Of a stretch of DNA of 48,789 nt, positions 8,540-43,575 are shown one piece after another. The position numbers were made by a program, and so were the translations under genes. The stretch lies in contig JAPLUT010000003.1 in assembly GCA_026397475.1 (NCBI GenBank), forward strand, positions 1 through 48,789, written 5' to 3'. The notes under the pieces were generated by a model. It was not told where the DNA came from. It saw only the letters and a program-made list of their open reading frames with translations, and ran no database searches. Numbering within the stretch: the stretch's first letter is position 1; every line of letters begins with the position of its first letter. This stretch comes from a candidate division SR1 bacterium. GTDB taxonomy: Bacteria > Patescibacteriota > Gracilibacteria > Absconditabacterales > Absconditicoccaceae.

Positions 8540-8697
8540 ATATTTGAGGCCAAATATTTCATTCATTATGCAGTCAAAAATAGAAAATATTTTTGGAAGA
8601 TCTAATACACTTGGTAAGATTATTTTCGAAAATTATTTGCAAATTTTTTTTGATTCCGTATAGTATCACGATACAAACTATAGTGCTATTTAATAAT

Positions 8698-9132
8698 TTA
8701 GAGTCCAGAATTCATAATTCAGAAATAAATTTATGTTTTAATATCAAAAAATGAACCAACATATAGCTGAAAGAAGTTTTGAATTTGCTGTAAAAATAAG
8801 CAAATATCAGCTACGCTTGAAAGAAAAAAAATATTATGAAATAGCTTCCCAATTATTTAGATCATGAACAAGTATTGGTGCTAATATTACTGAAGCACAA
8901 TCTGGCACTAGCAAGAATGATTTCATTAATAAAATGAATATATCACTAAAAGAAGCTAGAGAAACAATCTTTTGGTTAAAATTACTTGAACAAGGATTTG
9001 AAGAGTCCAATAAAGAGCTACAAAAAGAATGCGAAGAAATAACCAAAATACTTGTGACTATTATTAAGAACACAAAAGCTAATATGAAAAAATAGAGTTT
9101 TCTGAACTCTGAATTTTAAATTCTGAATTAAA
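8698..9132 (+). mobile_element. S23-type gene flanked by inverted AT-rich arms
   Basis: The left arm (8698-8736) contains AGAATTCATAATTCAGAAAT; the right arm (about 9096-9132) contains TTCTGAACTCTGAATTTTAA and AATTCTGAATT, the inverse orientation of the same heptad. Between them is one four-helix-bundle gene. The right arm stops about 5 bases before the dnaJ start codon. The unit looks like a small mobile or REP-like element; solo copies of the arms occur elsewhere in the window. Confidence 0.5.
8751..9095 (+). CDS. Four-helix-bundle protein, S23/TIGR02436-like, 114 aa
   Basis: Starts at ATG 8751 (MNQHIAERSFEFAVKISKYQ) and ends at TAG 9093-9095. The pattern SQLFRSGTSIGANITEAQSG followed by KMNISLKEARETIFWLKLL is characteristic of the family first seen in 23S rRNA intervening sequences, which also includes the Avd proteins of diversity-generating retroelements. 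The Gly of the RSGTSIGAN motif is UGA, so the gene has long been in this code. No reverse transcriptase or variable repeat is nearby, so an Avd role is unlikely here. It lies between inverted repeat arms and 41 bp upstream of dnaJ. Molecular function is unknown; nucleic-acid binding is plausible for the fold. Confidence 0.9.
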
Positions 9133-9136
9133 TAAA

Positions 9137-10192
9137 ATGGATTTTGATGTAAAAAAAGACTATTATAATATTCTTGGGGTCAAAGAAGATGCTTCCCCAG
9201 AAGAGATTAAAAAAGCATTTAAAAAGGCTGCAGTTAAACATCATCCAGATAAGTGATGAGACAAAAAAAAGTTTCAGGAAATGAATGAAGCTTATCAGGT
9301 TATTGGTGATGAAAAGAAAAAAGGCCAATACGATGCTTATAGAAAATCAGGATATTCGTGATTTGATGGTCAGTGATGATTTGGTTGAGGTGGAGGTCAG
9401 GGAGGTTTTGACTTTTGAGATTTTGATATTGGGGATATTATGGGAGGGATTTTTGGTGGAGGATTCGGCTCCTGATCTAAAAGGAAAACCTCACAAGGCG
9501 GAGAAGACATCCAGGTCGCAATAGATATCAGCTTCGAGGAATCGTATACCTGAGTTACCAAAAAAATAGCATATAATAGAATGAAAAAGGTTACCTGAGC
9601 AGATGAAAAAAAGTGTGAAACTTGTAATGGTCATGGAAGCGTGATGCAACAGATTCAAACACCGTTTGGCGTCATGCAGAGTCAATGAGCCTGTCCAAAA
9701 TGTGGAGGAAGTGGAAAAATATTTACAAAAAATGGTGAAGTATTAAGCAATTGATGATTAGAAAAGATAAAAGAAGTTTTAGAGGTAAAAATACCTGCTG
9801 CAATCAAAGCTTGAGCCTATATAAAATTTGCAAGCAAAGGAAATGAATCATCGGGATACCAGATTGGTGACCTCTATATTCAAATCAACGTCGTCAGCTC
9901 TAGACTCTATGAAAGAAAGGGAGAACATCTTTATACCAAGGCAAATGTTAGCCTTTTTGACATGGTATTATGATGAGAAATAACTGTTGATCACCCAGAA
10001 GGAAAGCTAAAAATCAAGGTACCAAAAGGGACGCAAGTGGGAGATATGATTAAGGTTAGCGGAAAATGATTTGGCGTGGGAGGAATATTTAATAAGAAGG
10101 GGGATTTATATGTGATTCCCAAGGTCGAAATACCAAAAAAATTAAGCAAGGACCAAGAAAAACTATGGACAGAACTTAAATCTAAAAAATAA
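9137..10192 (+). CDS. dnaJ: Chaperone DnaJ with a reduced zinc-binding region, 351 aa
   Basis: The J domain is clear ([23 protein letters not shown], then HHPDKGG with the HPD that stimulates DnaK ATPase), followed by a Gly/Phe-rich linker with many UGA codons. The cysteine region has only two CxxCxGxG repeats, CETCNGHG and CPKCGGSG, instead of four; their spacing matches repeats 2 and 3 of standard DnaJ, which form the second zinc centre, so the first centre is lost. The C-terminal substrate-binding domains are present ([32 protein letters not shown]). Start ATG 9137 has no Shine-Dalgarno sequence and lies directly after the right arm of the repeat element. A UUCG-loop terminator follows. 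Confidence 0.95.
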
Positions 10193-18539: not shown

Positions 18540-19481
18540 TTATTTTTTAGTTATAAGTTTGTTTATCTTGTCGGCATATGGTATTGCAACAATTATTTTT
18601 TTGTATAATTTTAATGGCAAAAGAAAATGAAGTCTTGCTCAAATTCCGGCATCTGCATTATAAAACAAGGAAAGTGATTTTGGTAAAGAATTTTTCGTTC
18701 GATCATACAGCTCAAGACCAGAAATATATTTTTTTATTGTTAAGAAACAGTGCTTATCGTCATTCATATCACAGGGGAAAAATATTTTTTTATGATCTGG
18801 ATATTTCGCACAAAAATCTATGATTTTTTTTATGTTCTCCACATCTACAGACTGTTTGTTTATGTTCACTAATATATATTTTGTGGGTACTGTTTTTCAT
18901 TCATGTTTTATATTTTCAATTATCTCCTGGGCAAAATCCTGATACAAAATAGTGTTTTCTTGATTTAATGACTTTCCTATTGCGAATGATTCTCTATCTC
19001 TTACTGCAATCTTTTCTGCCTTAGGCAAAAGATATGTATAGAGTTTTTTTGTCAGTCATTTGCGGATTTTTCCTATTCATCAAAGAAGGGCAAATTGTCA
19101 TTTTCTAACGCTATAGTTGAAAAGGATCGGGAGACTTCGTCAATCATGAGGAAATGATCTTTCGTCTGAAAGAACCTCTCATCAACCAAAAAACTTAAAT
19201 GCTTTTTTATATTTTCATCGTCATAAAAAATTTATCAAATGGGTAACAATTTTATATTTGTGCTGTTTAGCAGAGACAAATTTAATAGCATTAAGCTGTT
19301 TCTCGGTAAGTAATCATTGATAGTTTTCTCGTACCCAGTCCTCCATTCGTGACGCATTTCCTACCTCTACGAAGAGTTTTGTGAGAGGATAATTTATGAA
19401 TAATCGTTTTACTACTCAAAAAAATAAGAGCTCATCTCCAAAATTTTTATATCCATAATATCCTCTCAAATACCCTTCCAT
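18540..19481 (-). CDS. csaB: Polysaccharide pyruvyltransferase, CsaB-like, 313 aa
   Basis: The protein begins MEGYLRGYYGYKNFGDELL, the G-x-x-G-x-x-N-x-GDE signature of the polysaccharide pyruvyltransferase family. KFFGGGEVLSDE and ALLGGIGKIRKG give the Gly-rich second motif, and ADAGIGARLHFLLP with IVAIPYADK gives the conserved R-L-H and Y-x-x-K at the C-terminus. CsaB adds pyruvate from phosphoenolpyruvate to the secondary wall polymer that SLH domains bind. An SLH protein is encoded downstream on the same strand, which supports the assignment. The glycines of the signature motifs are partly UGA. The stop of the preceding S23-type gene is 67 bp upstream, across a repeat array. Confidence 0.85.
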
Positions 19482-19580
19482 GAAATATAATTAATAATTA
19501 ATAATTAATAATTAATAATGTAGGTATTTAAATAAAACTACTCCATCATTATTCATTATTCACTTTTCATTTTTCATTGA
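19482..19580. repeat. AT-rich arm pair next to the second S23-type gene
   Basis: A tandem run of TTAATAA-type units (aattaataattaataatta, about 19487-19520), a core of roughly 25 bp, and an inverse run of ATTCATT-type units (attattcattattcactttt, to about 19580). The right part overlaps the 3' end of the S23-type gene and supplies its stop codon. A similar pair with another core is at 43469-43570. Confidence 0.75.
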
Positions 19581-19956
19581 TTTTCTTTGCTTCTTTTTTT
19601 TCTTCAGCGGCATTTATGCTTTTGACAAAAGCCATAAGCATATTGGCAATATGCCAAGTAATATCATAAAACTCTTTAAACTCTTGTTGGGTGATACATT
19701 CAAGCTCTAACAACATATATAACATTGATCTGAGTTGGCTTGTTCATCATTTCGCAATGAGAAATGCTGATTTAATTTCCTTATTACTTCTTCTTTCGAA
19801 TCCTTCAGCAATCTGATTCATTATTGTAATGCTTGTTTTGGTGAGCATATCCTTTAGCCCATATTCTTTGCAGTTTTTACAAACAGTATACAATTTTGCT
19901 GTTAGTTCTTTGCCTTTTTGCCAAGCGATTAGATCTTCAAATTTTTCTATTTTCAT
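19549..19956 (-). CDS. Four-helix-bundle protein, S23/TIGR02436-like, second copy, 135 aa
   Basis: Starts at ATG 19956 (MKIEKFEDLIAWQKGKELTA), the usual opening of this family, followed by YGLKDMLTKTSITIMNQIAEGFERRSNKE and FLIAKGGTSQLRSMLYVLLEL. Two consecutive UGA codons encode the GG. Reading UGA as Gly takes the frame past the place where a standard-code gene would stop (after INEK) into the repeat, adding about six residues before TAA 19549-19551. It is more like the classical S23 sequence than the copy at 8751. It lies 35 bp after the lamin-tail gene and next to its own AT-rich array. Function is unknown. Confidence 0.9.
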
Positions 19957-33250: not shown

Positions 33251-33343
33251 AATAAATTCAGAATGTAGAATTCAGATCTCAGAATTAGTAAAATTAAATT
33301 TATTATTTTCTGAATTATATATTATAAATTCTGAATTCGAGTT
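33250..33343. repeat. Solo AT-rich inverted-arm repeat upstream of tRNA-Gly
   Basis: The left arm (AATTCAGAATGTAGAATTCA) and the right arm (TTTTCTGAATTATATATTAT then AAATTCTGAATT) are in inverse orientation around TAAATTTATTA. This has the flanks of the S23-type element at 8698-9132 without a gene between them. Confidence 0.75.
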
Positions 33344-33417
33344 GCAGGCGTAGTTCAATTGGCTAGAACATTTCCTTGCCAAGGAAGAGGTTGCGGGTTC
33401 GAGTCCCGTCGCTTGCT
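33344..33417 (+). tRNA. tRNA-Gly, anticodon GCC
   Basis: 74 nt with all arms: acceptor GCAGGCG with CGCTTGC, D arm GTTCAATTGGCTAGAAC, anticodon stem TTTCC/GGAAG with loop TTGCCAA (anticodon GCC), variable AGGTT, and T arm GCGGG-TTCGAGT-CCCGT. The discriminator base is T and the CCA end is not encoded. It reads GGC and GGU, not UGA, for which a separate tRNA-Gly(UCA) must exist elsewhere. Confidence 0.96.
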
Positions 33418-39451: not shown

Positions 39452-39709
39452 ATGATGGATACAATCTTCAAGACCTTGTCTGACAGGAATCGTAGAAGAA
39501 TAATCCAGCTTTTGAAACAGAAAGAAATGACAGTTTCTGAGTTATTAACTCATTTCGACATTACTCAGGCTTCTTTGTCTCATCATCTAGATGTCCTGAA
39601 AAGATCTAACCTTGTTTTCGATGAAAGAAGATGACAGTTCGTTTTCTATTCTTTAAATCAGCCTGTGTTTGAGGAAACCGTGAATATGATCCTGAATCTA
39701 TTGGTGTAG
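39452..39709 (+). CDS. ArsR/SdpR-type winged-helix repressor, 85 aa
   Basis: IFKTLSDRNRRRIIQLLKQK, EMTVSELLTHFDITQASLSH and HLDVLKRSNLVFDERRGQFV form the complete ArsR-type winged helix, with FYSLN at the wing end. The SdpR branch (LSDPxRRxIL, F-x-x-x-Q-x-x-x-S-x-H-L) fits best. No metal-binding CxC motif is present, so metal sensing is unlikely. UGA encodes one Gly. ATG 39455 is an equally good start. It is divergent from the FecR-like gene and has inverted repeats upstream, which suggests autoregulation. A dispersed repeat starts 2 bp after the stop. Confidence 0.88.
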
Positions 39710-39710
39710 A

Positions 39711-39745
39711 ATGAATTCAGAATTCAGAATTCAGAAATAAATGAT
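39711..39745 (+). repeat. Dispersed AT-rich repeat, single arm
   Basis: ATGAATTCAGAATTCAGAAT continues to TTCAGAAATAAATGA. It is the cleanest tandem copy of the ATTCAGA heptad in the window (three units) and lies directly after the ArsR-type gene. Confidence 0.75.
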
Positions 39746-43461: not shown

Positions 43462-43468
43462 ACAAACT

Positions 43469-43570
43469 AAATGAATAATGGATAATGAACAATGAATGCT
43501 GTCGGAAAAATAGTTCATAAAAATCTCAAAAAACCAGCACTATTCATTATTAATTTTTAATTATTAATTG
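43469..43570. repeat. AT-rich arm pair between rny and the lgt-like gene
   Basis: Left arm aatgaataatggataatgaa, core GCTGTCGGAAAAATAG to AAACCAGC (with complementary ends GCTG/CAGC), and right arm attcattattaatttttaat. It matches the array at 19482-19580 in its arms but not in its core. No gene lies between the arms. Confidence 0.7.
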
Positions 43571-43575
43571 TTTGT

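Follow-up and report, generated by a model that had tools for sequence, protein, structure and literature searches.

Positions 8694-9130 of the window (the whole 48,789-nucleotide stretch of candidate division SR1 bacterium DNA analysed here) probably represent a minimal, roughly 440-bp mobile element, in which one S23/IVP gene lies between inverted arrays of short units. Comparison between genomes shows the gene and its arms behaving as a unit, which is present or absent at orthologous sites, recurs at unrelated sites, has numerous gene-less arms and hairpins beside it in its genome, and is found in several bacterial phyla. Statistical comparison shows in addition that the sequence of the arm unit and its length (7, 8 or 9) track the S23 protein.

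An S23 element in the dnaJ leader

The 437-bp unit is placed between a CIRCE-like promoter motif (about 8665-8691, located by comparison of dnaJ leaders) and the dnaJ start codon (9138-9140, plus strand). Its left arm (8694-8725, plus strand) consists of the four degenerate heptads AATTTAG, AGTCCAG, AATTCAT and AATTCAG followed by AAA, and its right arm (9099-9130, minus strand) is the inverse of AATTCAG, AATTTAA, AATTCAG, AGTTCAG and AAA; both were delimited from the sequence and by local alignment of the left arm to the inverted right arm. The S23 gene between them (8751-9095, plus strand; 114 aa in code 25, with TGA read as Gly) is the only gene of the element, and a profile search found no encoded transposase or recombinase. 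A sequence-only reading of the window had placed an S23-type gene between inverted arms at 8698-9132, and this is borne out by the profile matches of the protein and by the opposite orientation of the heptads on its two sides.

The protein matches PF05635 (E 1.2e-20, 74.2 bits against a cut-off of 33.8) and TIGR02436 (E 1.9e-27, 95.6 bits against a cut-off of 24). PF05635 was the sole family above cut-off, and the Y1 HUH domain of RAYT proteins is absent. An AF2 model (pLDDT 96) predicts a four-helix bundle as in 2rld and 2gsc, and Foldseek matched the predicted fold to 2rld (TM 0.87), 2gsc (0.76), the Avd protein 4dwl (0.73) and the complex 8ub7 of a diversity-generating retroelement (DGR; 0.73). 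S23 is best known from inserts within bacterial rRNA genes, and its solved relatives 2GSC and Avd are pentamers; to our knowledge it has no catalytic motif. The title of a reference listed in PMC10053308 describes 2gsc as five four-helix bundles. An anti-phage defence gene was also considered and was rejected, as PADLOC gave no match for the S23 element.

The S23 gene is absent from the dnaJ leader in all ten relatives compared (five congeneric, the other five from the same family), in which the promoter motif is unchanged. The left arm is likewise absent from the leaders of the relatives, and in G001, the closest relative, the sequences that flank the element lie only 9 bp apart. Since the more distant relatives are also empty at dnaJ, the simplest reading is an insertion in the lineage of the window. 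The element thus has terminal inverted repeats together with occupied and empty sites among relatives, as transposons and MITEs do.

The second S23 gene of the window

A second S23 gene (19549-19956, minus strand; PF05635 E 1.9e-20) belongs to a clade whose members here lack heptad arms of their own when arms are mapped on the protein tree, and its closest homologues (L082, L094:1198 and L111) are armless as well. The two arrays beside it, 19479-19525 and 19542-19581, both lie on its 3' side, and in an alignment the orthologous S23 gene of G001 has no such array. Because the array is absent in G001 and the homologues are armless, 19479-19581 is a separate gene-less hairpin insertion of another family (AATGAAT/AATAATT) at the 3' end of the gene. 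The second gene was therefore rejected as an arm-bearing element on the evidence of the G001 alignment. The earlier proposal that both S23 genes of the window carry arms holds for 8751-9095 and fails for 19549-19956.

Inverted arms beside S23 genes across phyla

PF05635 was found, patchily, in 34 of the 59 genomes searched, with at most 13 genes per genome. For 120 S23 genes with flanks, taken from the window's genome and its relatives, each 300-bp upstream flank was compared by alignment with its 300-bp downstream flank in reverse complement, and a score of at least 30 was counted as strong. Inverted arms of this strength were found at 58% of these loci (median score 32) versus 2.2% of 319 control genes from the window's genome (median 20; Mann-Whitney p 2.5e-32). 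Mismatched upstream and downstream pairs reached the threshold in 0.7% of cases, and reversed but uncomplemented flanks in 0.8%. The excess of arms beside S23 genes, which the sequence-only reading had named as a check of its proposal, was thus found. Arm identity is 0.54-0.56 at lag 7 versus 0.25-0.40 at lags 2-6 and 8-13. Arms are lacking beside a minority of S23 genes.

A scan of named genomes added 80 S23 loci outside the window's relatives, in Bacteroidota, Clostridia, Verrucomicrobiota, Desulfobacterota, Cloacimonadota, Spirochaetota, other Patescibacteria and more; its query was a two-sequence family alignment, so it samples mainly one S23 subtype. Strong arms were present at 41% of 78 of these loci, while mismatched pairs reached the threshold in 1.8% of cases and the 290 shifted controls in none. 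The period is 7 at 30 of the 32 strong-armed loci. Less AT-rich arms of like layout occur among them, with the units AGGGGTT, AGTGGCT and AGTGACG. About 200 loci therefore bear out the pairing of gene and arms, though the window's two genes, from which it had been proposed, are no example of it.

Among the period-7 loci, 76 of 87 arms hold three to five units, and the upstream arms of the 87 loci have in common the framework G[AT]NN[TC]N[AG] (score 187 versus a shuffled maximum of 163). Variant units occur in matching order on both arms of a locus (0.80 versus 0.72 for permuted units), which marks the arms as genuine inverted repeats that pairing or copying has maintained. Rfam has no match to the window's arms or to 40 S23 loci, and the arms were rejected as a known RNA family on that ground. 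No rRNA match was found in 40 S23 loci of other phyla.

The confident periods of S23 arms are mainly 7, 8 or 9 bp. Mapped on the S23 protein tree, unit length requires 11 changes versus at least 18 in 200 label shuffles, and within the window's relatives 9 changes versus at least 15. The 5-mer similarity of arms grows with protein identity, from 0.05 below 25% identity to 0.62 above 80% (Mantel r 0.25 versus a null maximum of 0.07). Common descent alone predicts part of this match, so linkage of unit and protein is shown more strongly than recognition.

These results bear on the simplest alternative, that AT-rich slippage repeats happen to flank some S23 genes. The arms of the window's genome are indeed AT-rich and degenerate, but the flank, shuffled-sequence and shifted controls refute chance overall, less AT-rich arms have a like layout in other phyla, and unit length follows the protein. 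We regard such a coincidence as scarcely credible.

Gene-less arms and hairpins

The window also contains arms without a gene. Two single arms of the AATTCAG family lie at 2018-2057 and 39705-39745; the inner end of the latter, CAGAAATAAA, is also found in the left arm of the dnaJ-leader element. An inverted pair of the same family (33254-33338) has a predicted hairpin fold of -20.0 kcal/mol and lies just upstream of a tRNA gene, which follows directly at 33344-33417. A hairpin of the AATGAAT family (43467-43575) has the layout arm - TGTCGGAA .. ACCAGCA - inverted arm. Arrays, single or paired, are thus present at all four window sites at which gene-less arms had been claimed. By eye, the inner ends of AATGAAT-family hairpins (TGTCGGAA .. 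TACCAACA) resemble those of the gene-bearing loci L007, L081, L099 and L124.

These arms are numerous in the genome. The pattern GAATTCAGAATTCA, with at most two mismatches, has 197 genome matches versus 6 for the reversed pattern, and 449 kb of the window's genome contain 70 period-7 arrays versus 1 after block shuffling; none of the other periods tested gave more than 6. The midpoints of 49 of 64 arrays fall outside ORFs and 15 inside, though ORFs cover 89% of the 20 stretches tested. Units of the genome's own arms are in excess (GAATTCA at 54 versus 8 sites, AATTTAG at 74 versus 29, AATGATG at 24 versus 5), while units of other phyla show no excess there on average. The excess of gene-less arrays is limited to the S23 arm families of L004, L006 and L007, with none for the S23 genes L001-L003 of the same genome. 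A like specificity is seen in Paludibacter: AGTATCA, the arm unit of the S23 in that genome, has 73 occurrences there versus 0, and only 0-1 in four genomes with another S23 unit.

The S23 gene of the AATGATG family in the window's genome (L007, G000:C1:159485-159643) is frameshifted, though the genome has many hairpins of this family. Orphan arrays of AAGTAGA/AAGTATA (L161:8744, L168:4359, L171:3188 and L176:16456) and of AACTAAC (L169:8507, L170:4603 and L174:14480) in the window's genome, G000, match the S23 arms of relatives (G006/G008 and G005/G007/G010, respectively) and no S23 gene of G000.

Presence and absence among related species

Sites were compared between species that are about 80% identical rather than between strains. 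Within a ribosomal-protein region, G000, G001 and G005 differ in which orthologous gaps contain an array. For the element L117 of G007, the exact empty site is found in G003, immediately past a stop codon, and at the site of L097 (G005) the window's genome has an array of another family. L097 and L117 encode proteins that are 83% identical, with arm alignment scores of 59 and 61, and their flanks are not homologous; L081 and L099 likewise have matching arms, proteins 88.6% identical and unrelated flanks. Five genomes (G001, G002, G009, G011 and G021) have an empty leader at a lexA-like gene; in six others this leader contains S23 genes that differ in clade and arms. Of 245 S23 pairs with at least 60% identity, 99 share both flanks, suggesting that many copies are inherited in place and that movement is slow. 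No target-site duplication was recognised in the alignments, at a divergence too high for short duplications. The earlier suggestion of a mobile element with gene-less derivatives is supported by the empty sites, the occurrence of gene and arms at unrelated sites, the inner ends that hairpins have in common with gene-bearing elements and the differences between species at orthologous sites.

The lexA-like leader (L271-L282) appears as an insertion hot spot, which holds S23 genes of several clades, another small gene in G005 and a REP-like palindrome in G010. Ahead of the lexA-like gene in G006 (L277), the S23 gene, which has a GTAATGAATAG arm, is followed by some ten direct repeats of 20 bp, ACACATTACAATTCATTACT, that are nearly identical; the arm has apparently expanded on one side. 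In the leaders of L046 and L278, relatives have REP-like palindromes (CGTCATTCCGG; GGCTGTCATTCCGGTG...GGTTGCAACCGGAATC) rather than heptad arrays.

One S23 element with arms (L142:1127-1572) is inserted in the first variable region of a 16S rRNA gene. Some 100 bp on, at about 1675-1880, the same gene has a second insert, a gene-less AT-rich hairpin. The 23S rRNA gene of the window's genome is uninterrupted and contains no S23.

The location of the arrays in leaders and between genes would also suit a domesticated regulation at the RNA level, in which S23 controls the translation or stability of its own transcript and of others by binding their units, while the arms multiply by ordinary duplication and are retained for their regulatory effect. 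The constant polarity of the arms to the gene, seen in the common upstream framework, and the preserved order of variant units fit this account, and heptamer repeats just 5' of start codons in Beggiatoaceae have been interpreted as regulatory (PMC4679880). However, sister species differ at orthologous sites and different families occupy one leader, a turnover that fits a conserved regulon poorly. S23 genes are codirectional with the next gene in 67 of 81 cases versus 77% for other neighbours; this excess is not clear, and operon-type coupling to the downstream gene was rejected on that basis. We consider RNA-level regulation unlikely as the explanation of the arms.

Candidate partners in trans

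Since no transposase or reverse transcriptase can be recognised in the element, enzymes acting in trans have to be weighed. Reverse transcriptase (PF00078) is present in 15 of the 59 genomes and missing from the S23-rich G005, G006, G008, G039, G040, G044, G051 and G054; Y1_Tnp is missing from the S23-rich G003, G005, G007, G008, G039, G040, G051 and G054. Both are missing from G005, G008, G039, G040, G051 and G054, which are drafts of 95-99% estimated completeness. Neither enzyme was retained as a required partner, as S23-rich genomes lack both.

A retroelement without its own reverse transcriptase, in which S23 would act like the Avd protein of DGRs while a reverse transcriptase copies the element RNA in trans, is consistent with the Avd-like predicted fold and with the rRNA-inserted copies, which suggest an RNA stage. 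It agrees poorly with the restricted distribution of PF00078 and with the true DGR Avd of the window's genome: at L008 (G000:C7:29309-30829) a reverse transcriptase is followed by a bAvd gene (PF22296), and this locus has no arms. The reverse transcriptase matches of that genome lie on contigs C2 and C7, with none on the window's contig, C5. We consider this retroelement quite improbable.

One S23 gene with many gene-less palindromic copies of its flanks per genome is also the layout of RAYT and REPIN, and the window's genome has one Y1_Tnp gene. A TnpA(REP)/IS200-like HUH enzyme could accordingly be supposed to move the arms in trans, with S23 as passenger or helper. But Y1_Tnp is missing from the eight S23-rich genomes named above, and the one gene in the window's genome has no adjoining heptad arms, which makes this explanation very improbable.

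Relation to known systems

The nearest described system is the intervening sequence (IVS) of rRNA genes. IVSs with an S23 ORF and a terminal stem of 28 bp, such as the Coxiella 23S rRNA IVS, which codes for S23p, have been called selfish elements (PMC4990558), and a mobile origin of S23-coding IVSs was proposed by Ralph and McClelland in 1993, as cited there. The two are alike in having one S23 gene within about 430-480 bp, terminal inverted repeats with a stem of about 28-32 bp, gene-less hairpin forms and a suspected mobile origin, and L142 is such an insert, in 16S rRNA. They differ in that the dnaJ-leader copy lies outside any rRNA gene, as do most others here, that the arms here are tandem 7-9 bp units specific to S23 clades, and that gene-less arms are dispersed by the dozen.

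RAYT (TnpA-REP) with its REP/REPIN sequences (PMC8266576, PMC3116915) resembles the S23 element in combining one protein gene with many short gene-less palindromic copies of its flanks per genome, but S23 lacks the HUH domain, tandem heptad arrays take the place of REP hairpins, and Y1_Tnp is dispensable. Avd proteins of DGRs (PF22296, 4dwl, 8ub7) share the predicted fold; the 8751-9095 gene has no adjoining reverse transcriptase, whereas the L008 Avd has one and no arms. TAACTGA heptamer repeats of Beggiatoaceae, Cyanobacteria and Bacteroidetes (PMC4679880) likewise form intergenic tandem arrays, with one heptamer per genome, but were described as direct repeats without mention of S23.

In the searchable literature (subscription journals and bioRxiv lay outside its scope), heptad arms beside S23 genes are not described, and no paper was found on S23 elements that are dispersed, have tandem units specific to their clade and are accompanied by gene-less copies. 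The earlier statement that no mechanism had been described thus stands for the pairing of gene and arms in these papers, but not for the mobile origin of S23 IVSs, which was proposed long ago (PMC4990558).

A possible mechanism and its meaning

For the minimal mobile element that we favour, the S23 protein would recognise the repeated units of the arms. TRAP binds spaced triplets, and by analogy an S23 pentamer may contact perhaps one unit per subunit along the strand. In this way S23 would single out for movement both the element and the gene-less copies related to it. With its inverted arms the element may fold into a hairpin, which would explain how leaders, intergenic gaps and even rRNA can tolerate it. 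With no recognisable transposase or reverse transcriptase in the element, and with S23-rich genomes that may lack both, movement would fall to host enzymes. More broadly, it is plausible, if still short of probable, that these loci form a pan-bacterial class of mobile elements, in which the sole protein has the Avd fold, is probably a pentamer and reads tandem units of 7-9 nt. Each family would have its own word, of a length set by the protein, which would act in trans on dozens of gene-less copies, and rRNA IVSs would be copies that landed in rRNA genes.

No role is known for the PF05635/TIGR02436 proteins, which are spread over many bacterial phyla. If S23 reads the words that flank it, a large orphan family would gain a testable function, rRNA intervening sequences would gain an explanation of their origin, and the heptamer arrays scattered in many genomes would be relics of one kind of element. 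With about 200 natural S23 loci, many of which have readable units of 7, 8 or 9 nt, a recognition code is directly testable. A mobile element without a cutting or copying enzyme of its own would be a new way to move DNA.
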